Virus record (IMG/VR): IMGVR_UViG_3300025133_000589
Coordinates: 1-24,036 of that record
DNA from: a virus
DNA: 24,036 nt
Reading direction: 5' to 3' (one strand)
Shown: positions 1-21,805 of the stretch, piece after piece
How the letters are laid out: each line of letters starts with the position of its first letter
Position numbering within the stretch: the stretch's first letter is position 1
Translations under genes and position numbers: made by a program
The notes under the pieces: model-generated
The model's database searches: none
The model's input: only the letters and a program-made list of their open reading frames with translations
Told to the model about the DNA's origin: nothing

Positions 1-2054
1 AGGATTCAAATAGAGCTCAAGAAGAAGCTTTGAAGTTGAAACAGGATACAGAGAAAAGACTTTATGAAAGTGATTTAAACTTAACTCGTGCTGATAAACT
101 ACAAGCGTTTGATGAGCATTCAAAACATAACTCAAAAAATGTAGAAGAGTGGCTTAGTGCTATACCTGAAGGAGGTCCCAAAGCTCCAATAGACCCTTCA
201 ACTGGAAAAGCATTTGAAACAGAAGAAGTTTATAATAAAAGGATTGCAAGAGAGAATATAATAAAACAAGCAAAGGCGGCAAGCCGACAAGCTAAAGCGG
301 ACAAGGCATCCACTTATTCTAAATCAAAGAGGAAGAGACAGCAAATGGGTGCAGATAGAAAGTCTTGGGAATCCTACCTACAAGATGGTGGTTTTATACC
401 AAGACATTATAATAAGGGAGATGTAGTAGAAGAACCCGCTTACTGGTCGCAGGAAGCTGGTAAAAGACGTAGGGCTGTGGGAGAATATGAAAGAAAAATG
501 AAGATGATGAAGAGGAACCCTGCATCTTATAAAAGTAGATATGGTGATGAAGCTCCAGTAGACCCTAGATTAGAATGGAATAGTTCAGCTCAATTAGAAA
601 CTACCCAAGAACCTGCCCCAGTCGTTACCCAAGAACCTGCCCCAGTCGTTACCCAAGAACCTGCCCCAGTCGTTGCCCAAAAACCTAAAAGACCGGGTGT
701 ATATCAAGGGGCTGGATTAACCGCACAAGCTAATGAACAGTTATACGCAGAAGACCCAAGTATGAGAGGGCAATCTCCTGAAGCTAGAATAGAGAGATAT
801 GAGGAATTATTTCCTTATCAACCCCAAGACGTTGACCAAAAAGAACCAAGTCTTAATTATGAATACCCTGAATTTGAGCCAAAACTGCCTTTTAATAATT
901 CAAGCGATGATAATTTCGAGACCACAACTGCAGAATCTGTGACAGAAGGAAAGCTTAAAAATGCTCCTACCCAAGTCGTTGCCCCAGTCGTTGCCGAGAA
1001 TACTGACGGTGCTTCTAATCTAGTAGAATTATGGAAAAAAGGAAAGCTTACTACTGCTCCTACCCAAGTTCATGCCAAAAACGTTGCCAAAAACGTTGCC
1101 GAGAATACTCCTTCTAACATACTCCGTCACACTAGTCAAGGTGTTCACAAAGCAGATAATTGGGGTGACCTTCCTCTGGGAAGTGCTTCTGGAGAATCAT
1201 CATCTGAAATAAAACAGAAAGCAGATAGTTTAGACCTTAAAAATGCTAAGCCAACACATACAGCAGATGCAAGTACATCAGCAGAAAGTGTGTCTGACTC
1301 AGCCGGTGCTCCTAAGTCAAAGTCTACTATACAAGAACTAGCAAGTCAAGCTGAGGGTATAGGAGAACAAACTGTAGATGCAGTAAAAGATTTTGGACAA
1401 AAAGCATATCAAGGTGCTGGAAACTTCTTAAAGAAAGCTCATGGAAGATTCGGTGGAGATGCTTGGAAAGCAAGTAAAGCTATGAATATCGAAGCAGACC
1501 TGAACGCAGATGGCTATAAAGCATCTAATAAAGAGCTGGCTATGAAGATGAGAGATGAATTTGGTGAAGGTCAAGGTGATTGGGAAATGGCTAAAGGTCA
1601 AGGAAAACAAAGATTAAAGGATGACTTTGAAACCGTATTAGGAGCAGGAGTTGCAGGTGTGGGAGCGGCAGGTACTTATGCTTGGGATAAAGGTAAGAAA
1701 GCAGTTAGGGCTGGTAGAGACTGGATAAGTGACGAAGAAGGTTATGAGCAAGATTTTAGTAAAGTCCAATCAGGTGAAGCTCGAGGTTCTAATATGCAAA
1801 GAGTTGGTAAAGGTGTTGGAATGCTAGGAGAACTCTTTAAAGACGCTTCTCAATTTCATGGCTATGAAGGTGGAGATTGGGATAAATATCAGAGACCCGA
1901 CCCTAAGACAAAGACTGATGTAGATGAAATTGATTTGCTTACTGGTAAAAAGAAAGGGGTAGCGGCATCTTCTGAAGAATTAATTCAATTTAAACAAGAT
2001 GGTGGACCGATTACCTTAGAAGGATTTATACAGCAATCTTGGAGGAATATGTAA
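1..2054 (+). CDS. Partial virion-type protein with Pro/Ala-rich tandem repeats (5' end outside window)
   Basis: The frame is open from base 3 with no stop before it, so the TTG at 30 is not the real start and the gene begins outside the window. About 683 residues are visible. They are hydrophilic and rich in Lys, Glu, Ala and Gln, as in scaffold, linker or internal virion proteins. Three exact copies of an 8-residue unit (QEPAPVVT-like) lie near one third of its length. Two diverged copies of a second block (GKL..APTQV..VAEN) follow. A Gly/Ala segment (TVLGAGVAGVGAAGTYAW) near the C-terminal quarter could insert in a membrane. A QDGG-I motif occurs twice, once near residue 120 and once close to the C-terminus. 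The TAA overlaps the next gene's ATG (TAATG), implying coupled translation. I do not recognise the family. An internal or ejected virion role is inferred from the neighbours. Confidence 0.75.
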   Translation, partial: DSNRAQEEALKLKQDTEKRLYESDLNLTRADKLQAFDEHSKHNSKNVEEWLSAIPEGGPKAPIDPSTGKAFETEEVYNKRIARENIIKQAKAASRQAKADKASTYSKSKRKRQQMGADRKSWESYLQDGGFIPRHYNKGDVVEEPAYWSQEAGKRRRAVGEYERKMKMMKRNPASYKSRYGDEAPVDPRLEWNSSAQLETTQEPAPVVTQEPAPVVTQEPAPVVAQKPKRPGVYQGAGLTAQANEQLYAEDPSMRGQSPEARIERYEELFPYQPQDVDQKEPSLNYEYPEFEPKLPFNNSSDDNFETTTAESVTEGKLKNAPTQVVAPVVAENTDGASNLVELWKKGKLTTAPTQVHAKNVAKNVAENTPSNILRHTSQGVHKADNWGDLPLGSASGESSSEIKQKADSLDLKNAKPTHTADASTSAESVSDSAGAPKSKSTIQELASQAEGIGEQTVDAVKDFGQKAYQGAGNFLKKAHGRFGGDAWKASKAMNIEADLNADGYKASNKELAMKMRDEFGEGQGDWEMAKGQGKQRLKDDFETVLGAGVAGVGAAGTYAWDKGKKAVRAGRDWISDEEGYEQDFSKVQSGEARGSNMQRVGKGVGMLGELFKDASQFHGYEGGDWDKYQRPDPKTKTDVDEIDLLTGKKKGVAASSEELIQFKQDGGPITLEGFIQQSWRNM
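603..674 (+). repeat. Three perfect 24-bp coding tandem repeats
   Basis: A 24-bp unit occurs three times head to tail with no mismatch and encodes TQEPAPVV each time. The next bases (gcccaaaaacct) are a decayed fourth start. The period is a multiple of three, so the frame is kept. This is a Pro/Ala linker that probably expanded by slippage or recombination. Confidence 0.95.
947..1107 (+). repeat. Diverged duplicated block in the same gene
   Basis: Two related segments (about 947-1001 and 1041-1107) each start with ggaaagctta, continue with gctcctacccaagt and end with gttgccgagaatact. They encode GKLKNAPTQV...VVAENT and GKLTTAPTQV...NVAENT. The second copy contains an extra internal duplication of the KNVA unit. 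This is an older duplication than the exact 24-bp array upstream, but it uses the same TQV/PVVA vocabulary. Confidence 0.8.
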
Positions 2055-3556
2055 TGGAAGTTAAACCGATGAATCTAACGGGAGTATCCCACAATCCATT
2101 AACTGGGATGGCTAGAGAAGAAAGTCCTGCTGATAAGTATAGAAAAGCGGCTGAAGTTAAGTTTATGAAGAAGATGCAGTCTTACCAAATAAAGGCGGCA
2201 GAAAGAAAAGAAAATGAATACTATATAAATAAAAGAGCAGAGAACTTTGTCTTCTCTCATTACCCAAGTTCTAAAGGATATGGAGATTTTACAACTGCTT
2301 TTGATAGACAGAAATTTAATCCCGGTTCTAGAAGTAAGATGTTAAAGATATGGAAAGAACAAGTAGGCGGTGGACTACAACAATTTAATCAATGGTATGA
2401 AATGTCAAAGCAGGCTGAACAGAAAGCTTTGGTTAATTCACTTACTAGAGACCCTAGGAAATATTTAACTCAAGAATCTTATGAAAATGCTGTAAGTGAT
2501 TGGTATAATGGACTTTCCGATGATACAAGAATGAATTTAATAAATAACTCTAGTCCAGAACTTATGAATATAATCAACTCTGTTGTTGACCCGAGTAAAG
2601 ATATGAAGTGGGAGACAATAAAACAACAATTTGAAGATGATAAATGGGGTTACATAACTGGTGCCAGTGCATTAGCATTTGCTGGCTTTATGGCTTTAAG
2701 AAAGGGGAAATTCCCATCGTGGTTAAGTAAGTCTGGTATCATTAAATCAGGTGCGTTACTGGATGACAACTTCCTAAAGCAATCTATGCTTGATGGAAGT
2801 AAAATTCCAGCTAAAAGAGTAGATGATATGCTTAAACGTAAGATGATTACTAAAGCACAAGCAGATGCACTTAAAGCGGGAGAAAGAGTTGTACCTGATG
2901 TTTATATGAAGAATATGCCTAAGCGCGGTCAGCAAATGAATATGTTTGATGATGTGGTACAGTCTACTAAAAATAACATTAGAATGGCTCAGAGAGATAT
3001 TAATAAGTATGTTAAAGATAAAATGCTTACCCAAGCACAAGGAGACCAATTAAAAGGTGTCTTAGATGATATGGTTAGAAACGGAGAAACAATTACTCCT
3101 AATAATCTATTGCGTAAATTACAAGCAGGTGGAAAGAAGTTTGAAGGATTGACTACTGCTCTTGATAAAGGACAGAAGGTTATGAAGGGCTTTGGTCCTA
3201 TAAAGAATCCCGGTATAATATTAGGAATGGCTGTCGCTGGTACTGCTTATTTAGGGGTTAGTCAACTTGCAGAAATGGCAGGAATGGATGAAAATGATGC
3301 TTCAGCCGCAGGCTTAACCGCCGCAATACCATCTCAAGCTTACCCAATCTACTATAGAAAGATTAAAGATGTGCTTCAGAAGAAGGGTAGTGCTTATGTG
3401 ATGAAAAAGATTTTGGAGAAGGGGTCTTGGAAATTAGCCGCAAGAATTGCAGGTTCTACATTGCTGTCTGGCTCAGGAGTTGGGGCTGTTGTTGGATTCG
3501 GCTTACTCGGTTGGGAGTTAAAGAACATATACGATTTATTGACTGAAGAAGAATAA
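2054..3556 (+). CDS. Putative internal/ejected virion protein with hydrophobic segments and two SHOCT-like helical repeats
   Basis: I chose the ATG at 2054: GGAGG sits at 2041-2045 with 8-nt spacing and the ATG overlaps the upstream TAA. A TTG at 2039 in the same frame would overlap the Shine-Dalgarno itself. The product is 500 aa. The N-terminal half is charged and helical. A hydrophobic stretch (ITGASALAFAGFMAL) precedes two similar helical units, VDDMLKRKMITKAQADALK and INKYVKDKMLTQAQGDQLK, which resemble the short SHOCT motif. Two further Gly/Ala-rich hydrophobic segments follow (ILGMAVAGTAYLGV and the C-terminal STLLSGSGVGAVVGFGLLGW). Ejection proteins that cross membranes often combine helical bulk with such segments. 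The position directly before the giant polymerase-like protein supports a co-ejected partner, but this is inference and no family is recognised. Confidence 0.75.
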   Translation: MEVKPMNLTGVSHNPLTGMAREESPADKYRKAAEVKFMKKMQSYQIKAAERKENEYYINKRAENFVFSHYPSSKGYGDFTTAFDRQKFNPGSRSKMLKIWKEQVGGGLQQFNQWYEMSKQAEQKALVNSLTRDPRKYLTQESYENAVSDWYNGLSDDTRMNLINNSSPELMNIINSVVDPSKDMKWETIKQQFEDDKWGYITGASALAFAGFMALRKGKFPSWLSKSGIIKSGALLDDNFLKQSMLDGSKIPAKRVDDMLKRKMITKAQADALKAGERVVPDVYMKNMPKRGQQMNMFDDVVQSTKNNIRMAQRDINKYVKDKMLTQAQGDQLKGVLDDMVRNGETITPNNLLRKLQAGGKKFEGLTTALDKGQKVMKGFGPIKNPGIILGMAVAGTAYLGVSQLAEMAGMDENDASAAGLTAAIPSQAYPIYYRKIKDVLQKKGSAYVMKKILEKGSWKLAARIAGSTLLSGSGVGAVVGFGLLGWELKNIYDLLTEEE

Positions 3557-3569
3557 TTAAGGAGGTCTT

Positions 3570-6500
3570 TTGGCTGAACCACAACAATGGTCCCCTAAGA
3601 TGGAAGAAGACCAGATTAGAGGGGTCATAGACCAATACAATAAGCAACCTCAGCTATTTGATGGCAGAGATGATGACCTTGAATCTCTAGAGGAACACGC
3701 ACACTACTATAGAATACCTTTTACTCGTACTAAAGAGCATCAGGATAACTATGTGATGAGTATCCTTAAAAATGCTGGGCAAGGCTGGGCAGAAGGATTC
3801 TCTACACTTCCACTAGCTGGAAAAGCAGAACCAAAAGATACTTGGCAAGCAATAGCTAATAACCTAGGGCACTTAGCAGGTTTTGTAGGATACTTACCCG
3901 GTGGAAGAGCATTAAAATCTTTAGGTGTACTAAAGTCATATACAAAATTAACAGATGGACTTCGTGGTGTATCTGTTCCAATGGCAGTTGCTAGTAAAGC
4001 ACAAGGTGTAGTTGGAAAAGCTATTAGACCTATATTAAAAGACTTACCAGAATGGGCAACTTCAGGTATTGTTGGAGATATGGCACAGGGTGCTTTCCAT
4101 TTAGGTACTGCTAGTGCTGTGTCAAGTTGGACTCACGGCATAGATGAGATATTTCATTCAGCAGGATTTGGAGCTGTTGCAGGTAGTGCTTTTAGAGGCA
4201 TTGGTAATATGAAAGGCTTTGGTCAAAGAATTAATATGAATCAGATGAAGCCTAATGGTAGTCCTGATTTTTCAAAAATAAGTGATGGACAAAAGGCTGA
4301 CTTGGCTTTAAGGACTATGGCAGGTGCCGCTTTTCAAGGGTTACCTTCTACCTTACAAGGAGCTACTACTGAAGAGCAAGTCTACGCATATGCAATGGGT
4401 TCTTTCTTTGGATTTAAAGAAGTACCTTATCAAACTAGAACCGCCAGAGAATTTCTAGCAGAAAGTTTTAAAGAAAAATATGGTCCAGACCCAGAGATGA
4501 ATCCAAAATGGGATTCTCTTACTTCTGAAATGAAAGAAATCGTGAAGATGGATTTCCAAGAAACATTTCAATACTCTGCTGAAGGACCTAGCGAAACATC
4601 ACACCTCTTATTTGATTTATTAAGTCATCCAGATAGAAAGATGGACTTAGATGCTATTGAAAAGATAGCTAGAGAGTATGGTGAATCATATGAGGTTGAC
4701 CCAGTTACAGGAGAGATTAACGCCAAAGCATTAAGTAAAAAGGAATTAGACGAATATAAAGAAGACTTTATAAAAGAAGGTAGAGCTGATAACCCAGAAG
4801 ATTTAGATATGCACATTCAAGCTATCGCAGATATTCCCGGTAGGCTAGTAGGAAAAAATGGCTATGTAGAACAAGTGTTCCCCGAGTTATCAACTGTAGA
4901 AAGAATAGATATAGCTGACGCTATATTTAAAAAATGGAAAGGACTACAAAATGAAGACTCAAAACCAATCCCGGGAGCAGAGCAAAAAATCATTAGCTTT
5001 ATTGAAGAAAATTATGGAAGGAAGCTCACGGACAATGAACAAGGATGGTGGAGACGTTGGGCTGAAACTAATAGAAAAAAACAATGGGTGGAACAAGTTG
5101 AAATCAAAGATGAAGAAGTTGGAATACTTAATTCTAAAACCAACTCAGCAGGAAACAAAAAAGACCTCTCTCAAGAACCGCTTATTATCCAAAGTCTGCA
5201 CGATGCTGAATATAAGAGATTAAACGGTCAAGACCCTGACCCTCAAGACCATTTCTTTAGGGTATTAGACCACGTTATCTTTAGAGGTAAGGAACACGAC
5301 TTAAAAAGAGCTGAGCAAAATATTGCTAGGCAGGAAATGGTTCGTATACAAAACTCTAAAGAAAGAGACCTATATGACTATGATACATTAAGAGACCACG
5401 TTGAAGGTTATGCTAAGAATCATATGGAAAATGTGATGAAGAAACTTCACGAAAAGATGTGGGAAGATGGTTACTATTACTTTGGAGGTAAGGGTGATGC
5501 TAAGAAGATGTTCTTTGTTAAGATACATCCGGGTTTAAAGAAGCCACCTAAGTATGACCCCGTTACTAACAAGCCTTTGCCACAGGAATTTAAAAGAGGT
5601 ATTGTTAAAAAGGTTCTTAGAAAGATAAGAAAAGTTCTTAGAGATAATGGTACTGAAAATGTTAGAAGAGCATATAGAGAGGGTAGAGATGAATGGAAGA
5701 AAATGTATCCGGGTATTGAGAATGCTAATGAGATGTATGATAGGATGTTTGTATCCAATGCCTTATATGATTTAACTAATAATGGTTACAGTACAAAGAT
5801 TAAAGATTTAGATGCGGGTTTAAAAGATGTATTAGGACCGGGGTTTATTAATGACCCTAAAGCTTTTAATAAGAGGGCACAAATCTGGTTTAATTCAGGT
5901 TTATCAGCTAATCCAACTGAAATTTTCAAGCATATGAGGAAAGTTCTTGGAAATGATAATGATTTTATGGGTTCAGATTTCCGGGTAGGGATATTCTATG
6001 ATGCCGATGGTAGACAAAGTATAAAATACTTTGACCAAAAGAAATTAACAACTGAATCTGAGGCACTAAAGTATACTGAAATAACTGATGGTGCTATAGT
6101 AGCTAGAAGTGAAGTTGTTGATGCTTTAAATTTAGACAAAGGTCTGCCTACTGATGGTGGAATGAATAAATCATTTATTGTATCTCCAGATGCGGTTAAT
6201 GGTGCTTTACTAGGTAAGTATGCTATACATAAAGCATCCCCAGAATTAGAAGCTTATATGAGAGAGAACAAGATTCATATGCTAATGCCAGAGTCTGCTG
6301 TTAAGCAATCGGGTAAACGTAAAGATTCTGCTGGAGACTTGCAATCTCATATAGATTATGACACAGGAGAAGTATCTATCAGTTTTGATGGTACACCTTT
6401 TAGACTACCTGCGGCTCATTTTAGAACCGTTATGTCTGAAATCACTACAAAGAAGATGTTAAAACCATCTCAACTCCCAAAACAGATGTACTCCGTATTG

Positions 6501-9500
6501 TCCTCATATGGCTTTAAAGGTATTGAAGCAGAGGCTATGAAGGATATGTATCAAACTCTCTCTGAGAAGGCTATTAAAGGGACTCCTGAAGGTCGTGAGA
6601 AGTTAGAAGAGTATATGAGGAAGCGGGATACTAAAAGTATTGAAGATGTGGTAGAAAATCTCGAAGAAATACCGATAAATAAACTCTTTGAATTAATAAG
6701 GGACCCTGAACATCCTAAACTATCACAGAAACTTTATGAAAAGATTTTAAAAGTTAATCACGAATACGTAGAAGCCTTAGCAGAAGAAGGTGAAGTATCT
6801 AGAGATGAATTGGAGATGTATAAAGAAAAGGTAGCTGATTACGAAAGCGTTATAGAAAGATTAAGTAAAGTCTTTCCAGATGGCTCCGTAGGTGCTTATA
6901 TGCATAAGTTCTCTAGAGATTATCGTATGCAGGCTATGCGTAATTATGTGGTACAGAAATTAACTAGACCCAGAATTGATAATAGTGCGTCAGCTAGAAT
7001 GAGACCTTATGAAGTAGGGTTCCATAATCATCCAGAAATGGCAAAGCTTAATACTAAAGAAGGACAAGATATGTTCTTTTTAGATGAAGGATTCAGAGAG
7101 CTTGTTATTAAAGATGATATGTTTAGAGGTGGACGTATAAAGTTAGGTGAATTATGGGAGACTAGGGAAGAGTATACAGGGGTACTTAAAGATAAGATAG
7201 ACCAGATACTTCACGGATTAGTAATGCGTGTTCCTATGGACTCGATATCTGGAGCTCATAGTCTCAAATTTCAAGGGTTTACTGGAGTAGATGGGTTAGG
7301 AGCCTTATTACACCCAAGAACTATGAAAGCCCTAGGTGGTGCAGATTTAGATGGTGATAAAGCAACTATATTTTTTGGTGGAGAAAGTCACGGATTTAAA
7401 CAGAAGTGGCGTGAAATGTATCACGGTGCTAAAGATGAGTATGTAGACCCTGTAACTAAAGCTGAAAAACATAATAAAGAAGCTATAGACCCTAAGACAA
7501 AGCAGTCTTATAGAGATGATTTAGCTATTAGAGATGAAGATACATTAGAGAAATCCTATCACCCTACGGCACAATACTCTCCTTACTGGAGAGAATTTAT
7601 GAGTAGAGGTGCTTATGGTGGTCGTGATATGTTGGGAGTTGCAGTTACAAGAAGAATGGCTGTGCTTGGTGCTTATGACGCAATAAGGTCTTTTGATATT
7701 GATGGTAAGCAAGGATATGAAACTCAAGATATTGTTATCAAAGGCTCTGGTAATGTTGATTTACAGAAGGATGGGGAGATTTGGGTTGAACAAGTTATCT
7801 TAAGTAAGGATAAATACAGTGTCCCTTACTATGACAATAAGGATGGTGTTTTAAGAAGGCTTGAATTTGAGATAAGAAAAGGTGATGTAGACCTACAAAG
7901 ATTTAGAGAGCTATCTAGAGCCGCTATTGCACTAGGCTCTGACCCTATGGATGAAGTTGGTTTAAAAGGTGACCTATTTGAAACTAAGATTTTTGATACT
8001 CTTTTTAAAACAAGTGTATATGAGACCAATGAAAAAGGTGTAGCAACAGAGCGTAATGAGAGATTGTCTAGGTATATAAATGAAGAAGATAGTAAGATAG
8101 GTTATTTAAAAAAGAAAGGTTTACACGGGCAGTTCTTAGAGGCTAACTCTTTATTGTATGGTAAAAATCATAGAGATAATAGACGGTGGAGCTATGCAGA
8201 AATCCAAGCGGGTATCCATAAACTTAATTGGTTACCAGAGAGAACCAGAAATACGTTCCTCCCGCAATTAGCAGAATCTATGAAAGAAATTAATTGGTCT
8301 GATAATATCTTTAGACACATTAATGAAGGTGTATTAAATAAAATTTACTTTGACCATAATGAAGTTGTTAAGGGTGCAGATTGGTTAAAGAATATTATGG
8401 GTAGAGAATCTATGGCTACTCAAAAAGGTAGGTTCATCCAAGGTATACTTGATAAGAAACTATATGATGAAGCACAATTAAAGAAGCTTGCTATGGATGA
8501 AGAGGGTTTTATTAAGTTTATTACCTCTGAGTTTACTCGTAAGGATGGCTCTAAAGGTAAGGCTATGGGTCAAATACCTTGGGAATTTAAACCATTAAAC
8601 GCATCAGACTATTATACAAGAAGAGCATATCTAGAACACCTACTCCTTAAAGGTGAAGATTTTTTAGTAAATGATTTAAGTGATATGGCATCCTTAAAAT
8701 CAATAACTGATGTAATAAAGAAAAATAAAATAGGTGATGAGAGGATTGATTACATTCATAAGAAGTCTGATGAAATCAAATCTCAAGGAGTTCACTTAGC
8801 AAAACAAAGGAGAGCTCTAGATGATGCCCTTACTGAACATTATGAAGGTCGTGAAGGTCTTAAAGAAAGTGAAGAACTACGCAAAAGTTTTGGACTTGAC
8901 GACAAAAGTACTCAAATCAGTGACCAAATTCAAACGGACAAAGCGATAAGAGATTTTAAAGTAGAATTGTCAGAAGGAGAACGAGATTTATTTGATATGT
9001 TATTTATGGGAACTTATCAAAGAGCTGACAGAGAAAGAATGAAAGCTATTGAAGCTTATAAAAAGGTTAGACCTGAAGTCGTTAGAGAGCATAACTACTT
9101 ATTTAAATCAATGAAGAACACTTCGCTGGTGCGTGCTGGACTAACTTCTAAAGAAATATCTGATAAGAATTTAAAAATCTTCTTTACTAATTATGACCAC
9201 ATAATGAAGAAGGCTAAAGTAAATCTATCTAAAGAACAAGAAGAGTTGTTAATGAGAGAGGCTACAGAAAAAGAACCTGTAAAGTCTTTCTTTGATGAAC
9301 ACGGTAATAAAATTAAGGGAGAATTTGTAGATGCCAATTTAATAAATGATAAAGAACGACAATACCTAGATGAAGTTGGTCCCTTTACTGGGTTATATAA
9401 GGGTGAAATTAAAGACCCTGAGCTACTTAGACTGTATGATAGTTTAACTGAGCACTTATCTCACTATCATAACTTAGATACTGTTAATCTAAATGGTTTC

Positions 9501-12371
9501 TTTAGAGGATTATTTAAGAAAGATATAAATCAAGCTACTAAAGTAGACCTACAACAACTTGACGCCGTCTTTAAAGAGATGAGAGATGGTACTTGGTGGC
9601 GTAATACTGTAGAATGGCTGACTGGTAAGGATAAGAATCCTGAGATAAAGAAAGCATACTACTGGATGTTCCCTAAAGCTATTGATAGAGACTTAATGCG
9701 TAACCCTGCTATGATGGAATGGTTAGAGGATGTAGGACCCTTTAAAGATAAGATAGGTAATACTATTGAAAACGCTAGGACAATTAGACCTACATCAGTT
9801 ATAGGAGAAATACAACAGTTATCTGCTAGAACTCAAGAGTTATCTATGCAGAAGTTTGAAGAAGAGACTGAATTGTTTAGAGAAGAGCTTAGACCTTATA
9901 TTAACGCTGTTGAAGATGGTGACATCTTATTTAAAATAGCAGTTGCTGATAGGGAATTAGGCTATATGAAGGCTAAGTTAAGAAAAGAATATAAAGCTGA
10001 TAGTCATAACCTTACAGCTAAGGAGATGGAGTATCAAAATAATTGGAATGAGACTAGAAAAGATTTCGATATGATAAAATATAAAACCTATGTGATACCT
10101 ACTAAAGATGGCAATGTTCAAATGACTGGTGAAGCTATTATAGGTAAAATAAATAATATCATAACTAAGACCAATATGAAGACTCATAAATGGTTAAAAG
10201 GGGACCCTGAGAAGATTCAAGAATGGCTAAGTATATCTGAACCTAATGGAAGAATAAGCTGGAGTGGTTTAGATAAACTTAGAAGGAAATTTCACGAATA
10301 CATTAAAGCTACTATAAAAGAAAATAAGAGTATTCCTATTGAAGATTTAGGGATAGACGGCTTAAGGCAGATTGTTAAAAGAGTTGCTCTAAGTCAAACC
10401 CCGTATGCACTTAGAAGTAATAGGACTTTAAATGAATCTCGTAAAAGATTAAGGATTGATAAGTTTGATGAGACAGGAGACCTTGGTGCTGAATACTACT
10501 TCCCTCATATGTCTTTTAATAGAAAGAAAGCAAAAAATAAATTAAAGGGTGCCGTTAAACATATAATGGAAAACCCTAATATGACTCCTGAGCAAAAAGA
10601 AAAAGATATTCGTAAGGTTAATCATCAGTTTAAACAACTTACTGGTGACTTTATGGCTAAAGATGATATGGGTGAGAATTTTAACCTTATGCAGGATGTG
10701 ATGCGAGAGATGGCTTTAGGTAAGAAACAGAAAGCTCATAATATTTTAACTAATGATTTAAAAAGAGTTGGTAATCAATTTAGTAGAGACGCACATATAG
10801 GTGGATGGGAGATGACTCCTGAAGCATATGAAGCTTATATGAAAAATGCAATTAGCACTTTCTATAAACAAGCAATGCAATTATCTGCAAGAACTGCTAT
10901 GTTTAACTTTAATAATACTTTCTTTAAACAGACTGGTGATGGAAAACTAACTAATAACTGGATGGATTTCTTTAGGTTGTATACTCAAAGTGCTATGGGT
11001 TATCCTACTCATATACCCGAAAGAATAGCGGAAGACCCCGCTATGAAGATAAAAGGTACTGCTTATAAGTGGCTTGCTGATTCTACTGCAAAGAAAAGAA
11101 TTGATTTTATAGGTAAAAAACTTGGGGTGGGTCGTAAAGAGCTTGAACGGATGAAGTTAGATGAGGAAACGATTGATGAATTAAGTGGAGTAGAGTATAA
11201 AACCCTTGAACGATGGGGAGCGAGAGAAGCAAAATGGCAGTTAGCATCCTTATTGGCTCACCCTAAGAGTTCTATTGCAAACCTTTATGGTGGTACTGTA
11301 CATACTTGGATAAGTGCAGGCTATGATAACATTAAGAAGGCTAGAAACTTTGAATTTCTGAAGACTAATATTAATCCTAAGTGGAATAGTATGAAGGATG
11401 TTGAGAAATGGATGCAAGAACTTGGTATCATTGAAGAATTTTTAGTTTATGAGGCTGGTCTTAATCCTAAACTTAAAGGTAAAAAGACTCAAGCCTTTAT
11501 TAAAGAGGCTTCGCAACGCATAAGAAGAGACCCTAATATGCCTGATGAAGGCTTACTTGCCTTAAGTAAAAAACACGGTCTAACTGAAAGAGCTTTCCAA
11601 GCGGCGGCATCTTTTATGCGTATACCTGAGCGTATTCTTCGTAGAGATTCGTTTATGGCTCATTATATACAGGCAAAACAACAATTTGGTGGAGCTATTA
11701 AAGATTATAATAGTCCATTCTTAATAAATTATGCTAAAAAGGGTGTAAAAGGAACTCAGTTCTTATATAGTGCACCTTTTCGTCCTTTATGGACCAACAG
11801 CACTCTGGGTAGGGTTATGTCTCGTTTCCAATTATGGAGTTGGAATAGTGTTCGCTTTAGAAATGACGTAATAAGGCGAGCAGAAATTGCAGGTTATCGT
11901 CAGGGTACTCCTGAATTTGAAACCTTTAAACGTCTAGCAATGGCTGATTTGTTTATGTTAGGTTTATCTAATGTATTTGCTTACAGTTTATTTGAAAACG
12001 CACTTCCAGCTCCTTGGAATTGGTTCCAAGATACAGCAGATTGGATGTTTGGAGACGAAAAAGCAAAAGAAAGAGCTTTCTATGGTTCTGCTATTGGACC
12101 ACTTCAAGCTGTTACACCACCGGCACTAAGGCTATTACCACCTATGTTTAAGTGGATGGTCAGTGGAGACGGAGAACAGCTCGCTGATTACTACCTTTGG
12201 ACAATCCCTCCGTTCGGTAGATTAGCACGGGATATAGTAGGTCCCGGTGGAGCCATAGAAAATCCTTATTATGCTATTACAAAATTTACTGGATTACCAG
12301 TAATGCAAATGGCTTCAGCAATAACTAGTGAGAAAAAAGGAAGAACTCGAGGTAAGTTTATATATGGATAA
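3570..12371 (+). CDS. Giant (2933 aa) virion-type protein with two-barrel (DPBB) RNA polymerase catalytic signature
   Basis: It starts at TTG 3570 behind AAGGAGGT (3559-3566); the first in-frame ATG is at 3600. Residues about 90-300 hold Gly/Ala hydrophobic stretches. Around 838-912 a TDGAIVA segment precedes Lys867, Lys883, Lys888 and an MPESAVK segment ending at Lys912, a candidate first double-psi barrel. The decisive signature is R1220-V-P, L1247-H-P, then A1258-D-L-D-G-D. Order and spacing (R to H 28, H to first D 11) nearly match cellular RNA polymerase beta' (25 and 10 in E. coli), so Asp1259, 1261 and 1263 should bind catalytic Mg. A Gly/Arg helix at 1347-1370 could be the bridge helix. 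Residues from about 1500 on are mostly helical and unrecognised. A conserved-looking stretch near 2560 (LLAHPKSSIANLYGG) and a hydrophobic one near 2795 resemble regions of large polyvalent phage proteins. YonO, QDE-1-type RdRPs and crAss-like gp66 share the DxDGD-type barrel. Virion packaging and ejection are inferred from size, hydrophobic ends and neighbours. Confidence is high for the fold signature and lower for its role. Confidence 0.85.
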   Translation: MAEPQQWSPKMEEDQIRGVIDQYNKQPQLFDGRDDDLESLEEHAHYYRIPFTRTKEHQDNYVMSILKNAGQGWAEGFSTLPLAGKAEPKDTWQAIANNLGHLAGFVGYLPGGRALKSLGVLKSYTKLTDGLRGVSVPMAVASKAQGVVGKAIRPILKDLPEWATSGIVGDMAQGAFHLGTASAVSSWTHGIDEIFHSAGFGAVAGSAFRGIGNMKGFGQRINMNQMKPNGSPDFSKISDGQKADLALRTMAGAAFQGLPSTLQGATTEEQVYAYAMGSFFGFKEVPYQTRTAREFLAESFKEKYGPDPEMNPKWDSLTSEMKEIVKMDFQETFQYSAEGPSETSHLLFDLLSHPDRKMDLDAIEKIAREYGESYEVDPVTGEINAKALSKKELDEYKEDFIKEGRADNPEDLDMHIQAIADIPGRLVGKNGYVEQVFPELSTVERIDIADAIFKKWKGLQNEDSKPIPGAEQKIISFIEENYGRKLTDNEQGWWRRWAETNRKKQWVEQVEIKDEEVGILNSKTNSAGNKKDLSQEPLIIQSLHDAEYKRLNGQDPDPQDHFFRVLDHVIFRGKEHDLKRAEQNIARQEMVRIQNSKERDLYDYDTLRDHVEGYAKNHMENVMKKLHEKMWEDGYYYFGGKGDAKKMFFVKIHPGLKKPPKYDPVTNKPLPQEFKRGIVKKVLRKIRKVLRDNGTENVRRAYREGRDEWKKMYPGIENANEMYDRMFVSNALYDLTNNGYSTKIKDLDAGLKDVLGPGFINDPKAFNKRAQIWFNSGLSANPTEIFKHMRKVLGNDNDFMGSDFRVGIFYDADGRQSIKYFDQKKLTTESEALKYTEITDGAIVARSEVVDALNLDKGLPTDGGMNKSFIVSPDAVNGALLGKYAIHKASPELEAYMRENKIHMLMPESAVKQSGKRKDSAGDLQSHIDYDTGEVSISFDGTPFRLPAAHFRTVMSEITTKKMLKPSQLPKQMYSVLSSYGFKGIEAEAMKDMYQTLSEKAIKGTPEGREKLEEYMRKRDTKSIEDVVENLEEIPINKLFELIRDPEHPKLSQKLYEKILKVNHEYVEALAEEGEVSRDELEMYKEKVADYESVIERLSKVFPDGSVGAYMHKFSRDYRMQAMRNYVVQKLTRPRIDNSASARMRPYEVGFHNHPEMAKLNTKEGQDMFFLDEGFRELVIKDDMFRGGRIKLGELWETREEYTGVLKDKIDQILHGLVMRVPMDSISGAHSLKFQGFTGVDGLGALLHPRTMKALGGADLDGDKATIFFGGESHGFKQKWREMYHGAKDEYVDPVTKAEKHNKEAIDPKTKQSYRDDLAIRDEDTLEKSYHPTAQYSPYWREFMSRGAYGGRDMLGVAVTRRMAVLGAYDAIRSFDIDGKQGYETQDIVIKGSGNVDLQKDGEIWVEQVILSKDKYSVPYYDNKDGVLRRLEFEIRKGDVDLQRFRELSRAAIALGSDPMDEVGLKGDLFETKIFDTLFKTSVYETNEKGVATERNERLSRYINEEDSKIGYLKKKGLHGQFLEANSLLYGKNHRDNRRWSYAEIQAGIHKLNWLPERTRNTFLPQLAESMKEINWSDNIFRHINEGVLNKIYFDHNEVVKGADWLKNIMGRESMATQKGRFIQGILDKKLYDEAQLKKLAMDEEGFIKFITSEFTRKDGSKGKAMGQIPWEFKPLNASDYYTRRAYLEHLLLKGEDFLVNDLSDMASLKSITDVIKKNKIGDERIDYIHKKSDEIKSQGVHLAKQRRALDDALTEHYEGREGLKESEELRKSFGLDDKSTQISDQIQTDKAIRDFKVELSEGERDLFDMLFMGTYQRADRERMKAIEAYKKVRPEVVREHNYLFKSMKNTSLVRAGLTSKEISDKNLKIFFTNYDHIMKKAKVNLSKEQEELLMREATEKEPVKSFFDEHGNKIKGEFVDANLINDKERQYLDEVGPFTGLYKGEIKDPELLRLYDSLTEHLSHYHNLDTVNLNGFFRGLFKKDINQATKVDLQQLDAVFKEMRDGTWWRNTVEWLTGKDKNPEIKKAYYWMFPKAIDRDLMRNPAMMEWLEDVGPFKDKIGNTIENARTIRPTSVIGEIQQLSARTQELSMQKFEEETELFREELRPYINAVEDGDILFKIAVADRELGYMKAKLRKEYKADSHNLTAKEMEYQNNWNETRKDFDMIKYKTYVIPTKDGNVQMTGEAIIGKINNIITKTNMKTHKWLKGDPEKIQEWLSISEPNGRISWSGLDKLRRKFHEYIKATIKENKSIPIEDLGIDGLRQIVKRVALSQTPYALRSNRTLNESRKRLRIDKFDETGDLGAEYYFPHMSFNRKKAKNKLKGAVKHIMENPNMTPEQKEKDIRKVNHQFKQLTGDFMAKDDMGENFNLMQDVMREMALGKKQKAHNILTNDLKRVGNQFSRDAHIGGWEMTPEAYEAYMKNAISTFYKQAMQLSARTAMFNFNNTFFKQTGDGKLTNNWMDFFRLYTQSAMGYPTHIPERIAEDPAMKIKGTAYKWLADSTAKKRIDFIGKKLGVGRKELERMKLDEETIDELSGVEYKTLERWGAREAKWQLASLLAHPKSSIANLYGGTVHTWISAGYDNIKKARNFEFLKTNINPKWNSMKDVEKWMQELGIIEEFLVYEAGLNPKLKGKKTQAFIKEASQRIRRDPNMPDEGLLALSKKHGLTERAFQAAASFMRIPERILRRDSFMAHYIQAKQQFGGAIKDYNSPFLINYAKKGVKGTQFLYSAPFRPLWTNSTLGRVMSRFQLWSWNSVRFRNDVIRRAEIAGYRQGTPEFETFKRLAMADLFMLGLSNVFAYSLFENALPAPWNWFQDTADWMFGDEKAKERAFYGSAIGPLQAVTPPALRLLPPMFKWMVSGDGEQLADYYLWTIPPFGRLARDIVGPGGAIENPYYAITKFTGLPVMQMASAITSEKKGRTRGKFIYG
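6081..6305 (+). other. Candidate DPBB-1 (lysine barrel) of the giant polymerase
   Basis: Residues 838-912 of the giant protein read ITDGAIVARS, then a Lys/Gly-rich loop with Lys867, then ALLGKYAIHK (Lys883, Lys888), then MLMPESAVK (Lys912). In two-barrel polymerases the first barrel starts with a DG turn and supplies conserved Lys residues that contact nucleotide phosphates. The order and the roughly 375-residue distance to the Asp barrel fit. The alignment is by eye only, so the exact catalytic Lys is not settled. Confidence 0.5.
7227..7361 (+). other. DPBB-2 catalytic segment: RxP ... LHP ... ADLDGD
   Basis: This segment encodes residues 1220-1264 of the giant protein. It has the three beta' landmarks in the right order: Arg-x-Pro, Leu-His-Pro, and ADxDGD followed by a short hydrophobic strand (ATIFF). 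In E. coli beta' the equivalents are RAP, LHP and ADFDGD. The combination is much more specific than DxDGD alone. Confidence 0.88.
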
Positions 12372-12404: not shown

Positions 12405-12584
12405 ATGCCAATGCCTTTTCATTGTCAGTTATGTGACAAACCTGTACAACAAGCTTTAAGTGCTATTTGTGATGATTGTAGAGCAGATGAAGAAGAACGT
12501 AAGAAGAGAGAGAAGAATATGGTCTCTTCAAATAGCATAGGAGAAAAAGATGGTAAACCCGAAGACGTTAATCACCGCCGCTAG
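12405..12584 (+). CDS. Small CxxC/CxxC zinc-knuckle protein (59 aa)
   Basis: ATG at 12405 follows TTGGAGG (12391-12397) with good spacing. The 59-aa product begins MPMPFHCQLCDKP and has Cys7-x2-Cys10 and Cys22-x2-Cys25, a compact zinc knuckle or ribbon. A highly charged Glu/Lys/Arg helix and a polar tail follow. Its last 35 nt overlap the start of the next gene in another frame, typical of phage gene packing. Small zinc-ribbon proteins between virion genes are common, but the specific role is unknown. It could bind nucleic acid or one of the giant virion proteins. Confidence 0.72.
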   Translation: MPMPFHCQLCDKPVQQALSAICDDCRADEEERKKREKNMVSSNSIGEKDGKPEDVNHRR

Positions 12585-14205
12585 AAAGCTTTCAAATAAC
12601 TCTAAGTCCTTTCTCCCTGATGTAAAGAAGGGCTATAATAAACACATTAAGACTGTAGCTAATGATGTTAGGCGGGATGTTTATGCTAAGAGCAAGGCTA
12701 CTATGCAGGATGTCAGTGACTCCTTATTATCTAAAAACGGTTTAGCAACTACTGGTTTAGTAGGTAGTACTGGACTATTAGTAGCTGATAAAAAAGAATT
12801 AATAGACCTTGACTCTGACGGCGTTAAAACAGGTGCCGCTATTATAGGTACTATAAGTGGAGCTCTTCTTGCCGCAGGCTTAGGTGCTAGAGGTATGAAG
12901 ACTGTAGTACAAAAGATTAGTAGAGGTAAAGCCTCTAAGGGAGACCTTAGAGGAGCAGGGGTTGGTTTGTGGAGGAATAACTTACAACCTGATGCTTATC
13001 ACGATGTTGCCATACCTTTTTATGGTGGAGGTCCCGCTACACAACTTATGTCTGTAGTAACAGAAATGGCTATGGCGTCTGGACGTGCTGGTAGGAGATT
13101 CTTTAATCCTAAAGAAAGTTATGCTAGTAAAATATCTGGATTACCACAGCATATGGCAAATGATATTACTACATATGAGAAAGCTGTTAAATCAGCTCAA
13201 CAAAAGATTGCTGATATAGACCCCAATCTTTATATGGGAAAGGGTGCGGCTAAAGAAGCAGAATATTATAAAGCAATAAAAAATATTACTAGACCAGTTA
13301 CTCAAGCAGAGAAACCTTTACACGCTAAAATGATTAATGATTACATAAACCCCGCTATTTTTAGAGAAAAGCCTAGGCAAGCCCTAAGTAAATATGCAGA
13401 AAGGTTCGTAAAAGAGGTTAATTATAGAGATTTACAGAAAACACACAGAGCTACTATAGGTCCTAAAGCATTAGATAATTTAATTAAAGCACAAGGTTTG
13501 AAACCCGGAGCGGGTAACAAGTACTTTGAATTAACTGGTGCTGGTATGCGTATGGGTGGAGATGTATTAAGAGGTATACAATTTGACGCTAGAGCTTATA
13601 ACCTTTTTAAAAGAGCTCAAAATGCTGGTATGAGTAGGGCTGAATTTATTAAAGGTGCAAAAGAAGCCTTTGGTGATAATGCTGTGATTCCCCTTACTAA
13701 TAATAAAGTGCAAATACTATTATCCCCTGCAAGAAAACCCAATATAGACTGGGGTGGTTATGCGGGAACTATAGTATGGGATAAAACAAAGCCCGGTAAA
13801 GTGGCTTTTATGGCAGATGACTTAAGAGATTTGTTTGGAGTTAAATTAGGTGCTAATGTATTAAACACTTCTCAATCTAAGGTGATTAAGATACCAGAGA
13901 TACTTGAATCTGTTAAAGATAGAGTATTGAAGACTGGTAAGGGTGTTGCATCTGGAAATAAAAAAGAAATGGATGAGCTTGTAGGTGCTCTTAAAGAAAG
14001 TAAGAAAGCTTCAACCTTTGATGTTACTTTTATGACTAAAGGAGATTATAATAATTTATTAGCCATAAAAGATAAACACGTTAAAGCTTATGGAGATAAA
14101 ATCCCACTTGAGGATAAGATTGAATTTACTGCTACTAGACTTGGAGCTATAGGTGCTAGTGGCGGCACTGTGGCAGGAGCCTACGCTTTGGCAACTGACG
14201 ATTAG
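12550..14205 (+). CDS. Putative internal/ejected virion protein with hydrophobic segments (551 aa)
   Basis: ATG at 12550 has TAGGAG 8 nt upstream and lies inside the end of the zinc-knuckle gene. After a basic N-terminus, two hydrophobic segments follow (TTGLVGSTGLLVA near 75 and TGAAIIGTISGALLAAGLGA near 100). The middle is a long Lys/Ala-rich, mostly polar region, and the C-terminus has a Gly/Ala hydrophobic tail (LGAIGASGGTVAGAYALA). I do not recognise a catalytic motif. Its build (short hydrophobic helices at both ends around a soluble body) repeats that of the 500-aa protein upstream of the polymerase. The two may be the membrane-crossing partners of the giant protein, though that is an inference. 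It is the last gene of the + strand module and is followed by a terminator. Confidence 0.75.
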   Translation: MVNPKTLITAARKLSNNSKSFLPDVKKGYNKHIKTVANDVRRDVYAKSKATMQDVSDSLLSKNGLATTGLVGSTGLLVADKKELIDLDSDGVKTGAAIIGTISGALLAAGLGARGMKTVVQKISRGKASKGDLRGAGVGLWRNNLQPDAYHDVAIPFYGGGPATQLMSVVTEMAMASGRAGRRFFNPKESYASKISGLPQHMANDITTYEKAVKSAQQKIADIDPNLYMGKGAAKEAEYYKAIKNITRPVTQAEKPLHAKMINDYINPAIFREKPRQALSKYAERFVKEVNYRDLQKTHRATIGPKALDNLIKAQGLKPGAGNKYFELTGAGMRMGGDVLRGIQFDARAYNLFKRAQNAGMSRAEFIKGAKEAFGDNAVIPLTNNKVQILLSPARKPNIDWGGYAGTIVWDKTKPGKVAFMADDLRDLFGVKLGANVLNTSQSKVIKIPEILESVKDRVLKTGKGVASGNKKEMDELVGALKESKKASTFDVTFMTKGDYNNLLAIKDKHVKAYGDKIPLEDKIEFTATRLGAIGASGGTVAGAYALATDD

Positions 14206-14255: not shown

Positions 14256-14280
14256 GGGGAGCTTGATTGCTCCCCTTTTA
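14256..14280 (+). terminator. Intrinsic terminator at the convergence of the two arms
   Basis: ggggagc (14256-14262) and gctcccc (14269-14275) form a perfect 7-bp GC-rich stem with a 6-nt loop, followed by tttta. It sits 50 nt after the stop of the last + strand gene. On the - strand the bases after the stem (aatta) are a weak U-tract, so termination there would be less efficient. Confidence 0.85.
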
Positions 14281-14964: not shown

Positions 14965-15450
14965 CTAATCGCAGTTACTCCCCGGTATACACTTTGTAGG
15001 TGGTACCAATGGGCTGTCGTTTTCATCTCCGGGGTCGTGTGGACCTATGTTGTGGATTTTATTAATAGGATTATCTGTTTGACCTATTCTTTTATCCTCT
15101 TCGTGTCCCCATTTACTCCCTTCTTTTAATGCTGATATTAAAGAATGTATCTCATTAGCTGTTACTAGTGAGTTTTCTTCATACGCATTAGTGTGGAGAT
15201 TGTGTAACCCTTGTATTATGTACTCCATTTCCTGTACTTCTACCTTAAAGGGTTTATTTTGCTTATCTTGTTCCAGCTCTAATAAATAAGCAGTTAAATA
15301 TACTGTGAGGTCTAGTACCTCGTCTATCGCTTCTTCAAGGTTTGTTAAGCCTCTTTCACGCTGTATAGGTACTTCACGTTTATATTCTTCCTGTCCTTTA
15401 TCTAGTCGCTCTTTAATAAGAGTTATTATTTTCTTATTTACGCCGTCCAT
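14965..15450 (-). CDS. MazG-like all-alpha NTP pyrophosphohydrolase
   Basis: ATG at 15450 overlaps the HNH stop; a TTG one codon earlier (15453) is an alternative. AAGGAGG lies 9 nt upstream of the ATG. The 161-aa product starts with a helix, then KGQEEYKRE and NLEEAIDEVLDLTVYL. Glu39, Glu40, Asp43, Glu44 and Asp47 form the EExxDExxD pattern that binds Mg in the MazG/dUTPase-like all-alpha superfamily. These enzymes hydrolyse (d)NTPs to monophosphate and pyrophosphate, and in phages they tune nucleotide pools or alarmones. The C-terminal 60 residues are polar with a CIPGSNC tail that is not part of the fold. Substrate cannot be told from sequence. Confidence 0.75.
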   Translation of the reverse strand: MDGVNKKIITLIKERLDKGQEEYKREVPIQRERGLTNLEEAIDEVLDLTVYLTAYLLELEQDKQNKPFKVEVQEMEYIIQGLHNLHTNAYEENSLVTANEIHSLISALKEGSKWGHEEDKRIGQTDNPINKIHNIGPHDPGDENDSPLVPPTKCIPGSNCD

Positions 15451-15941
15451 CAATAGCGTCCTCCTTTTGCTAGTTTCTTCATTACATAGGCACTTAACTC
15501 TTCAGGTAAGTCTCCTACAAGTTGTATTAATAATTGAAAATCTTCCTCATTCAATGGACCTTTACGGGTATTGCAGGTCTTGCAGATGAGTTGCAGGTTT
15601 TTAGTGGTAGATGGTCCACCCTTGGAAAGTGGTATAATATGGTCACAAGCAATAGTTCTAAATGTCAACTGCTTATTACAATATATACACCCCTTTCCAT
15701 AGGTGACATAGAACAATGTTCTTATCTCCCCAGAAGTTATGTCGAATTTGACTCCGTATTGTTCACTACGCCGCTTGAGAGAACTCTTAAGAGAACTCAT
15801 TTTTGAGGCTAGTTTCTTGTATGCCTTTTGCCAATACGTTTTATGTATCGGTTCAAGGACCTTTTCAAACTCCTTCTTAGATGGGGGAGGTAATGTGGCG
15901 TCTCTTAGCATGAGGTAACTTAATCCATTTTCTATACGCAA
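15450..15941 (-). CDS. HNH endonuclease
   Basis: Residues 82-128 carry a textbook HNH/zinc motif: Cys85-x2-Cys88, Asp100-His101 with IIPLSKGG after it, Asn115 (NLQLIC), Cys120-x2-Cys123, Asn124 and Lys127. The two CxxC pairs bind structural zinc and the DH...N residues form the beta-beta-alpha-metal nuclease site. The N-terminal 80 residues are basic and helical, probably DNA contacting. The start is uncertain: TTG 15941 or ATG 15911, neither with a clear Shine-Dalgarno, and both overlap the preceding gene. A stop at 15963 limits the extension. It could be a free-standing homing nuclease or a DNA-processing enzyme of the replication module. Confidence 0.88.
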   Translation of the reverse strand: MRIENGLSYLMLRDATLPPPSKKEFEKVLEPIHKTYWQKAYKKLASKMSSLKSSLKRRSEQYGVKFDITSGEIRTLFYVTYGKGCIYCNKQLTFRTIACDHIIPLSKGGPSTTKNLQLICKTCNTRKGPLNEEDFQLLIQLVGDLPEELSAYVMKKLAKGGRY

Positions 15942-16080
15942 ATAATCTGCGTTGTAGTTTTTCTAATCTCCGGGCTCCAGCACCATTTTTCTTAATGCGA
16001 CCCTCTTCTATTAACCTTTTGTACAAATCTATTGTACCTGTAAGGCTTATTGTACTGTCTGGGTTATTCTTTTTTACCAT
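15877..16080 (-). CDS. Small basic protein of unknown function (67 aa)
   Basis: ATG at 16080 is preceded by ATAGGGGT with about 5-nt spacing, a moderate ribosome site. The product is strongly basic. Its C-terminal half is a Lys/Arg-rich helix (GAGARRLEKLQRRLFAYRKW) suited to nucleic-acid binding. The stop lies 65 nt inside the HNH frame (or 35 nt if the later HNH start is used), suggesting translational coupling. I do not recognise a family. Confidence 0.6.
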   Translation of the reverse strand: MVKKNNPDSTISLTGTIDLYKRLIEEGRIKKNGAGARRLEKLQRRLFAYRKWIKLPHAKRRHITSPI

Positions 16081-16102
16081 TTCTACCCCTATAGAAATTA
16101 AT

Positions 16103-16146
16103 GGGGAGCAAGAACGTGTAACTGGCTTAATTGCCTCTTACTCCCC
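16103..16146 (-). other. Intergenic hairpin (6 + 4 bp stem)
   Basis: ggggag-c-aaga (16103-16113) pairs with tctt-a-ctcccc (16136-16146), 10 bp interrupted by one C/A mismatch. The loop has an inner ggc/gcc. It fills most of the 76-nt gap between the HTH and 67-aa genes. The downstream - strand sequence (attaatttc) is only weakly U-rich, so this could be a leaky terminator or an RNA-processing/stability hairpin. Confidence 0.55.
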
Positions 16147-16156
16147 GGTTATTAAT

Positions 16157-16372
16157 TTACGCTGATATCAACTGATATTCAGCATATTTGTTGCCTGTGT
16201 GAGACTTAACACGACTTGTAGCAATGTTATGTCCATCAGTTCGCAATGAATTTATGATAGCGGCTAATCTAAAGCAACCACATCTATTCAAGGCTAACAT
16301 AGGCGTTACCTTTACTCCTTGTTCTAAGAGCTCCAGTATTATAGTCTTTTGACTTCTTGCGTTTCTTGGCAT
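16157..16372 (-). CDS. Helix-turn-helix DNA-binding protein (71 aa)
   Basis: I chose the ATG at 16372 because CGGAGG lies 7 nt upstream; longer versions lack a ribosome site. The product reads as a small winged-helix/HTH protein: a first helix (SQKTIILELLEQG), then VTPMLALNRCGCFRLAAIINSLRTDGHNI, then a beta-wing rich in Lys/Tyr (HTGNKYAEYQL). The run of Leu/Ala positions with an LR-x-DG-H-I end matches the pattern of phage HTH_39-like regulators. It directly follows the promoter/operator at 16421-16520 and is the obvious candidate to bind it, but this is inference. Confidence 0.72.
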   Translation of the reverse strand: MPRNARSQKTIILELLEQGVKVTPMLALNRCGCFRLAAIINSLRTDGHNIATSRVKSHTGNKYAEYQLISA

Positions 16373-16420
16373 AGGTTTTCCTCCGATGTTATGAAACTTG
16401 TTGTTATACCGTATTTCCAT

Positions 16421-16520
16421 ATACATAACTCGAATCGTATACTATCATTATGTATGCTTACCCCAAATCTAAAATGCTGGAATAAAATAATGATTATACC
16501 ATTCTTTGGTATAAATATGT
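16421..16520 (-). promoter_or_regulatory. Extended -10 promoter overlapped by a dyad operator, plus a second dyad
   Basis: On the - strand TGGTATAAT (16501-16493) is a perfect extended -10. TAGACA lies 19 nt upstream as a weak -35. The -10 is embedded in an 8-bp perfect inverted repeat, ttatacca (16494-16501) and tggtataa (16507-16514), spacer ttctt, the classic position for a repressor. A third GGTATAA half-site occurs on the - strand at 16420-16414. A second dyad, atacataa (16421-16428) with ttatgtat (16448-16455), lies in the 5' leader around a gtatac core. Transcription would run leftward into the HTH, 67-aa, HNH, MazG and RNA region. Confidence 0.6.
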
Positions 16521-16532
16521 CTATTATCGGCG

Positions 16533-17063
16533 TCACGAACGTCTTACTCTTTTAACTTTTTGTATAAAGAACCCGGGAATGTCTACACCTTGAGTTAACT
16601 CTTTACGAGCTTTTTTCTTATCAATGTGTGTTGTCATCTTTACCACCTTATAATCATCAGGGACATCATCTTCACGGGAAACTGCTACAGGTCCGTAGGT
16701 TTCGTATAGTTTGTATCTAGCGGTGTCTGTTTCATAAACACCATCTGTGCCAACTTCCTCTACTACCATAGGTATTAGAGTTTCATTAAAGTACTTCTTT
16801 AAGCTTTCTGTTGCTCTTCTTCGTACTTTTAATCGCTGAATCTCCTTGGTTAACGCCTCAACTTCTGCGTCTACTAGGTGAATCTTTCTATCAATGTTTA
16901 TCATAAAGTGGTCTATTCCATCGACTTTACGTCCGATGTCCTGCTTAGTCACAGTTAAGGCACTTTCAATGACACTAACTTCGTCTTGATTATCAGCATA
17001 TTCTAATTGACACTCTAAGTCTATGAAATCTCCTACTAGTTCTCTAGTCGTTTTCTTTTCCAT
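16533..17063 (-). CDS. Gp157-like phage protein
   Basis: ATG at 17063 follows TGGAG with 8-nt spacing and lies inside the end of the RHH gene. The 176-aa product begins with a helical region and has a long coiled coil (residues about 50-95, VDAEVEALTKEIQRLKVRRRAT). The C-terminal half is a small beta domain containing DVPDDYKVVK and IDKKKARKELTQGVDIPGF. The coiled coil, the P-x-x-Y segment and the K-K-x-x-LK-x-G-x-x-x-G-F ending are the order seen in siphovirus Gp157 proteins (Sipho_Gp157). Those usually sit beside recombination/SSB genes, as here. Gp157 of Streptococcus phages is associated with phage resistance when expressed, but its biochemical role is poorly defined. Confidence 0.75.
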   Translation of the reverse strand: MEKKTTRELVGDFIDLECQLEYADNQDEVSVIESALTVTKQDIGRKVDGIDHFMINIDRKIHLVDAEVEALTKEIQRLKVRRRATESLKKYFNETLIPMVVEEVGTDGVYETDTARYKLYETYGPVAVSREDDVPDDYKVVKMTTHIDKKKARKELTQGVDIPGFFIQKVKRVRRS

Positions 17064-17211
17064 ATTCTTTCTCCAGAGCTTGTTCGATTATGTGTTCTAA
17101 TTGCTTACGCATACTACGTTTATTCCGTTGTGCTAACTTCTGTAACTTTAGTTTTGTTTCTTGAGTTACTTCAGTCTTTACAACAGCTCTTTCTCCGAAT
17201 GGTATAGGCAT
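17044..17211 (-). CDS. Ribbon-helix-helix (Arc-like) regulator (55 aa)
   Basis: The start is set at ATG 17211: AAAAGGAGGG lies just upstream and the ATG overlaps the helicase stop (TAATG). A longer frame exists but lacks this signal. The product has a short basic beta-strand region (AVVKTEV), helix 1 (TQETKLKLQKLAQRN) and helix 2 (SMRKQLEHIIEQALEKEYG), the layout of MetJ/Arc-type ribbon-helix-helix proteins. Such dimers bind short inverted repeats, so it is an alternative candidate for the dyads downstream at 16421-16514. Charge and length fit, but the target is unknown. Confidence 0.72.
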   Translation of the reverse strand: MPIPFGERAVVKTEVTQETKLKLQKLAQRNKRSMRKQLEHIIEQALEKEYGKEND

Positions 17212-21574: not shown

Positions 21575-21607
21575 ATACAGTTCCTCCTTATTATTTGATT
21601 GTGATTA

Positions 21608-21765: not shown

Positions 21766-21773
21766 ATGAAGCA

Positions 21774-21802: not shown

Positions 21803-21805
21803 GAA

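Follow-up and report, generated by a model that had tools for sequence, protein, structure and literature searches.

The giant gene and its catalytic segment

Does the giant protein encoded beside the structural genes of this virus contain an RNA polymerase and, if so, would that polymerase travel in the virion? The window analyzed here is an entire IMG/VR virus record of 24,036 bases. Its giant gene (3570–12371, + strand) is an open frame with a TTG start that encodes 2933 residues. The protein can be divided into an N-terminal part (residues 1–624; 3570–5441), a core that was modelled and compared by AlphaFold2, Foldseek and VIA-align and is read here as a two-barrel RNA polymerase (residues 625–1720; 5442–8729), and a C-terminal part (residues 1738–2933; 8781–12368) that is predicted to be mostly helical, with no confident fold match. 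The first 300 residues of the N-terminal part are conserved according to the conservation profile, and this part has no match in Pfam or PHROGs.

The first-pass annotation had placed the RxP, LHP and ADLDGD elements of a beta'-type active site, in beta' order and near-beta' spacing, within positions 7227–7361, which correspond to residues 1220–1264. Residues read off the open reading frame agree with this placement and with the numbering of the aspartates: RVP is found at residues 1220–1222 (7227–7235), LHP at 1247–1249 (7308–7316) and ADLDGD at 1258–1263 (7341–7358), such that Asp1259, Asp1261 and Asp1263 of the catalytic segment (7227–7358, + strand) would form the metal-binding triad by homology. 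The D.D.D pattern occurs once in the whole protein; by itself it carries little weight, because 0.96 occurrences are expected by chance in a protein of this size with 6.9% aspartate. The combination of RxP, LHP and DxDxD in the same order and spacing was obtained in only 7 of 20,000 shuffles. As a sequence pattern, the motif is thus a good lead that falls short of proof.

Conservation in relatives

Alignment-based scans of IMG/VR recovered 22 and then 55 related loci, which mostly encode giant proteins of 2,820–3,290 residues. The columns of Asp1259, Asp1261 and Asp1263 are invariant in all 34 core sequences (24–58% identity to the window protein). A scan seeded with the C-terminal part found at least 271 IMG/VR contigs with a relative, of which 80 were retrieved; DxDxD is present in each of the 56 contigs whose open reading frame covers the site, a set that overlaps in part with the 34-member core set. 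The two seeming exceptions have open reading frames that begin downstream of the site. On sequence grounds, this conservation is stronger evidence than the motif itself.

Four divergent relatives (L023, L077, L078 and L051) carry ADLDID, ADSDGD, ADTDGD and ADFDGD variants, with all three aspartates kept. Two others, L012 (9530–13393) and L017 (9509–13156), contain extra domains inserted shortly after the DxDxD strand. A match to cpYpsA, a Pfam entry of the SLOG family (E 2.7e-25), was obtained in one core member, which from its sequence appears to be L012; the insert of L017 was judged by eye to be ASCH-like.

Predicted structure of the polymerase core

Residues 625–1720 were modelled with AlphaFold2 using the 34-member alignment as input. 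The model has a mean pLDDT of 86.6 and a pTM of 0.83, and most blocks around the motif score above 90. The best PDB match by Foldseek is the virion RNA polymerase of the crAss-like phage phi14:2 (PDB code 6vr4; E 5.4e-8, probability 1.00), followed by QDE-1 (E 3.5e-5, probability 1.00) and by bacterial beta' subunits. VIA-align ranked QDE-1 highest (Z 13.2, 488–522 residues), with Z 12.1 for both the phage non-virion RNA polymerase (nvRNAP) 8f5m and 6vr4 (657 residues for the latter); plant RDR2 and Rpb1 rank after these. The alignment with QDE-1 extends over model residues 1–954, with both barrels within, and the structural alignment with phi14:2 gp66 likewise covers both barrels. TM-scores over the whole model are low (0.22–0.34 for the best PDB matches), which indicates a distant relationship and is expected for distant multidomain relatives. 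A viral structure library returned two close unnamed relatives (24–26% identity) and crAss-like proteins. Residues 1200–1300, where the first-pass annotation had expected one of two double-psi barrels, thus fall in a confidently modelled region, and both barrels are matched in known two-barrel RNA polymerases.

The candidate beta-like barrel, DPBB-B, comprises residues ~842–953 (6093–6428, + strand), with boundaries taken from the predicted strands of the model; the region is covered by the QDE-1 and gp66 alignments and has a match to crAss family motifs. It contains three lysines that are invariant in 34/34 aligned core sequences: Lys867 in NKSFIV (6165–6182), Lys883 in GALLGKY (6201–6221) and Lys912 in SAVKQSG (6294–6314), which occupy columns K243, K259 and K288 of the core alignment and were paired by eye with the crAss QPxK, PxxxKxS and SAVKVG segments, respectively. 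From the model alignment, these are the putative active-site lysines of a beta-like barrel. The family-conserved FNKRAQ (residues 766–771; 5865–5882) precedes this barrel and pairs by eye with the crAss KR...G segment. The candidate beta'-like barrel, DPBB-A, comprises residues ~1139–1270 (6984–7379, + strand), as judged from the model strands; it holds the DxDxD triad, with which the crAss profile is in register, and beta' and Rpb1 chains match model residues ~505–852. DPBB-A is followed by a 36-residue helix (residues 1338–1373, model helix H714–749; 7581–7688) and by GSDPMDE (7935–7955); the helix and this strongly conserved segment both lie within the structurally aligned range. These two elements are, by position only, the candidate bridge helix and trigger-loop region. 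Assignment of the 2933-residue protein to the two-barrel polymerases, by predicted fold and active site, is well supported by the computed model.

Sequence links to known polymerases

Direct sequence searches of Pfam, PHROGs, PDB sequences and named phages with the window protein gave no match, and a 13-sequence profile searched against the PDB found no polymerase; the relationship is therefore visible only through structure, profile-profile comparison and relatives. When the family was compared by hhalign with a profile of the crAss gp66 family, the score was 57.5 (E 3.6e-5) over ~58 columns with DxDxD in register, as against at most 22.5 for 30 column-shuffled control profiles. Other motifs match crAss in the same order by eye: FNKRxQ..F resembles the KR segment, TDGAI resembles TDAQ, and NKSF, LLGKY and SAxKQxG pair with the lysine-bearing segments. 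A crAss-like affinity, as suggested in the first-pass annotation, is accordingly borne out by both the top PDB match and the profile comparison. The profile search that it proposed gave a divided result: the window protein alone had no Pfam match, whereas the RdRP family PF05183 (the QDE-1 family) was the commonest Pfam match among core members (4/34, best E 7.9e-4) and was located at the DxDxD segment in both members inspected.

The hhalign comparisons with single sequences of YonO, P23-45 gp64 and P23-45 gp96 were not significant, and those of the N- and C-terminal parts with N4 gp50 and with phi14:2 gp65, gp66 and gp67 found nothing. Strict membership of the gp66 family is not established, as only a single segment has significant sequence similarity and no relationship could be seen for the flanking parts. 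The T7-type polymerase family PF00940 had no match in 11 records, a search in which no control gave a signal either.

An unrelated virion protein with a chance motif and no polymerase at all could also contain one D.D.D, since about one is expected at this size and composition, and would likewise lack a direct sequence match to known polymerases. Such a protein would not be expected to give a confidently predicted fold that matches known structures across both barrels, together with a profile-profile match and a conserved motif; the AlphaFold2 model, the Foldseek matches and the gp66 profile match make this reading very unlikely, and we give it next to no weight.

The C-terminal part

Conservation in the giant protein is highest in the C-terminal part, above that of the polymerase part, with a mean column identity of 59% over the last 526 aligned residues (residues 2390–2915; 10737–12314, + strand), a segment that may serve as an ejection or packaging domain. 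Its model is weak (pLDDT 64.4), and a Foldseek search of the PDB with this model gave no match with E below 0.2. Several members also show a weak match between the C-terminal part and phrog_11358 (a 3,431-position profile of unknown function; best E 1.3e-5), which hints from sequence at an ejection domain common to other giant phage proteins. The last 540 residues (10737–12314) align near the end of this profile.

The higher conservation of the C-terminal part than of the polymerase part would suit a structural or channel protein that is ejected, that retains the polymerase fold without its activity and in which the C-terminal part is the working domain. A dead enzyme, however, is expected to lose its catalytic aspartates and lysines, and here the aspartates and the lysines of the beta-like barrel are invariant in all 34 sequences down to 24% identity, with DxDxD kept in 56 of 56 contigs; we therefore regard an inactive fold as improbable.

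Gene neighborhood and distribution

The giant gene lies in a structural module on the + strand. Upstream are a low-complexity open reading frame of 683 residues (3–2054; 985 residues in relative L001), assigned to the module by position, and one of 505 residues (2039–3556); downstream is one of 551 residues (12550–14205). The latter two are, by position, candidate ejection or internal virion proteins. The neighbors had been described as hydrophobic and virion-like: only the 551-residue protein has a transmembrane-like segment, a single weak one, and the hydropathy scan found none in the others, but the virion-like part of the description holds in that the neighbors belong to the structural module of related genomes. 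A terminator-like hairpin with a T tail (14256–14275, + strand) marks the end of the structural operon. It is followed by a convergent replication and early module (14965–24035, − strand) with HNH-like, Mu Gam-like, DnaB/primase, Sak4-like, ThiF and Prok-JAB open reading frames. Five long relatives have the giant gene as the final or penultimate one of the structural module, facing the convergent replication module. The intergenic regions of five genomes yielded shared promoter motifs no better than those of shuffles.

Within the convergent module, the open reading frame at 15450–15941 (− strand) has by eye a CxxC...H-type HNH-like pattern (IYCNKQLTFRTIACDHIIPLSKGG), which is typical of HNH endonucleases. 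A ThiF/E1-like gene (20388–21152, E 4e-12) and a Prok-JAB-like gene (21806–22723, E 6e-5) are close together on the − strand, and both recur in relatives; to judge from their sequences, they are possibly a ubiquitin-like conjugation and deconjugation pair.

Among 11 related records (44–56 kb), the portal phrog_156 was found in 10 and the major head protein phrog_1328 in all 11; a large terminase is present in the single relative that was scanned for one. The distant named relatives of the portal include portals of P22-like and other short-tailed phages. Phages with relatives of the capsid protein include Roseobacter CRP-810 and Caulobacter Kuura; a profile search of their fetched stretches did not find the giant protein. 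The searches made of 50,697 named phage records found no relative. One scan of species-representative genomes with two short peptide patterns also found none, which is weak evidence of absence. A 'DNA transfer protein' of Caulobacter phage CcrSC (tblastn, E 0.5) was considered and rejected when the family profile failed to recover it. No published description of the group was found in the literature searched, which excludes most subscription journals.

A probable virion-packaged polymerase

The fold and the active site could also belong to a two-barrel RNA polymerase that is made late and acts only inside the infected cell, without being packaged, like P23-45 gp64 and YonO. Non-virion two-barrel enzymes, including gp64 of P23-45, do exist (PMC10770324) and match the core model with Z 12.1 and 9.8 (the P74 structure 8f5m and the P23-45 gp64-like structure 8f72). 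These enzymes are compact, however, with 616 residues for the P23-45 enzyme and 839 for YonO as opposed to ~2,900 residues with conserved flanks here, and the giant gene, in a structural module beside tail and internal proteins, occupies the position of N4 gp50 and phi14:2 gp66. We consider a polymerase confined to the cell unlikely.

In our judgment, the giant protein is quite probably a single-chain two-barrel RNA polymerase that is packaged in the virion and ejected. The computed evidence supports the fold and the active site well; that the protein is packaged, is ejected and transcribes early genes we infer from gene position and domain layout, as we do its template and promoters from the proposed role. 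The argument draws on the layout of N4 gp50 and on crAss gp66 and P23-45 gp96, the latter two of which show that two-barrel polymerases are packaged in virions. Residues ~625–1720 would hold two double-psi barrels, the first contributing the three invariant lysines and the second the DxDxD triad that would bind the catalytic magnesium, with the bridge helix after the DxDxD barrel. By analogy with N4 gp50, crAss gp66 and P23-45 gp96, a few copies would be packaged in the capsid and would exit through the tail together with the flanking internal proteins. The polymerase would then transcribe the first phage genes, which probably belong to the convergent replication module, ahead of the host RNA polymerase or without it, and the N- and C-terminal parts would probably serve in packaging, threading and membrane passage.

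Comparison with known polymerases

Two-barrel virion polymerases are already known in phi14:2 (gp66) and P23-45 (gp96), the latter of which transcribes the pre-early genes (PMC10770324). Like gp66 (6vr4), the window protein is a predicted single-chain two-barrel polymerase of some two to three thousand residues in a virion module, with the beta-like barrel ahead of the beta'-like barrel and with corresponding KR, TDxx, K...K...SAxK and RxP...DxDxD segments. It differs in having only ~10% identity, in reading DLDGD where gp66 has DFDID, and in showing no detectable gp65 or gp67 homologue in its N- or C-terminal parts; moreover, phi14:2 has a genome of 100 kb, whereas the capsid and portal here point to small short-tailed phages with records of 44–56 kb. 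As in P23-45 gp96, the predicted two-barrel polymerase has a DxDGD motif and forms part of a giant particle protein. In gp96, however, the polymerase is at the N-terminus of the tape measure of a long-tailed phage (PMC10770324), as opposed to a central position and short-tailed-type portals here. A PHROG search with the giant protein matched no tape measure, although a missing match is not proof, and the portal of its relatives has short-tailed-phage relatives.

N4 gp50 is an ejection protein carrying the early polymerase, the third ejection protein of its phage, with a three-part layout (PMC12633501). The likeness to this Schitoviridae protein lies in size (~3,000–3,500 residues), a central polymerase in three parts, a position as the last particle gene and adjoining smaller particle proteins (PMC12633501). 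The N4 domain is T7-like instead of two-barrel, the fold predicted here, and none of the three parts shows detectable homology. The analogy to N4 drawn in the first-pass annotation is thus reasonable for use and layout, where the three-part organization and gene order agree, with a different catalytic fold and no sequence homology.

The QDE-1/RDR family (PF05183) is the closest cellular fold by VIA-align, with a weak sequence match at DxDxD, but its members are eukaryotic RNA-interference enzymes without a virion context. YonO of SPbeta is also a phage single-chain two-barrel polymerase; in contrast, it is a non-virion protein and gave no meaningful profile match.

On these comparisons, the best reading is that crAss gp66 and P23-45 gp96 are joined by a new lineage. 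We lean somewhat toward the broader view that giant ejected polymerases on the N4 plan arose more than once with unrelated catalytic folds, and that widespread uncultured small short-tailed phages hold a third two-barrel virion lineage. If true, this would extend the short list of virion-packaged two-barrel polymerases by a deep lineage and widen the sequence diversity available for relating the single-chain two-barrel enzymes to cellular polymerases. It would also offer a natural test of the passage of a huge polymerase through a narrow tail, and would mean that small short-tailed phages can begin transcription independently of the host enzyme, using a cellular-type catalytic core.
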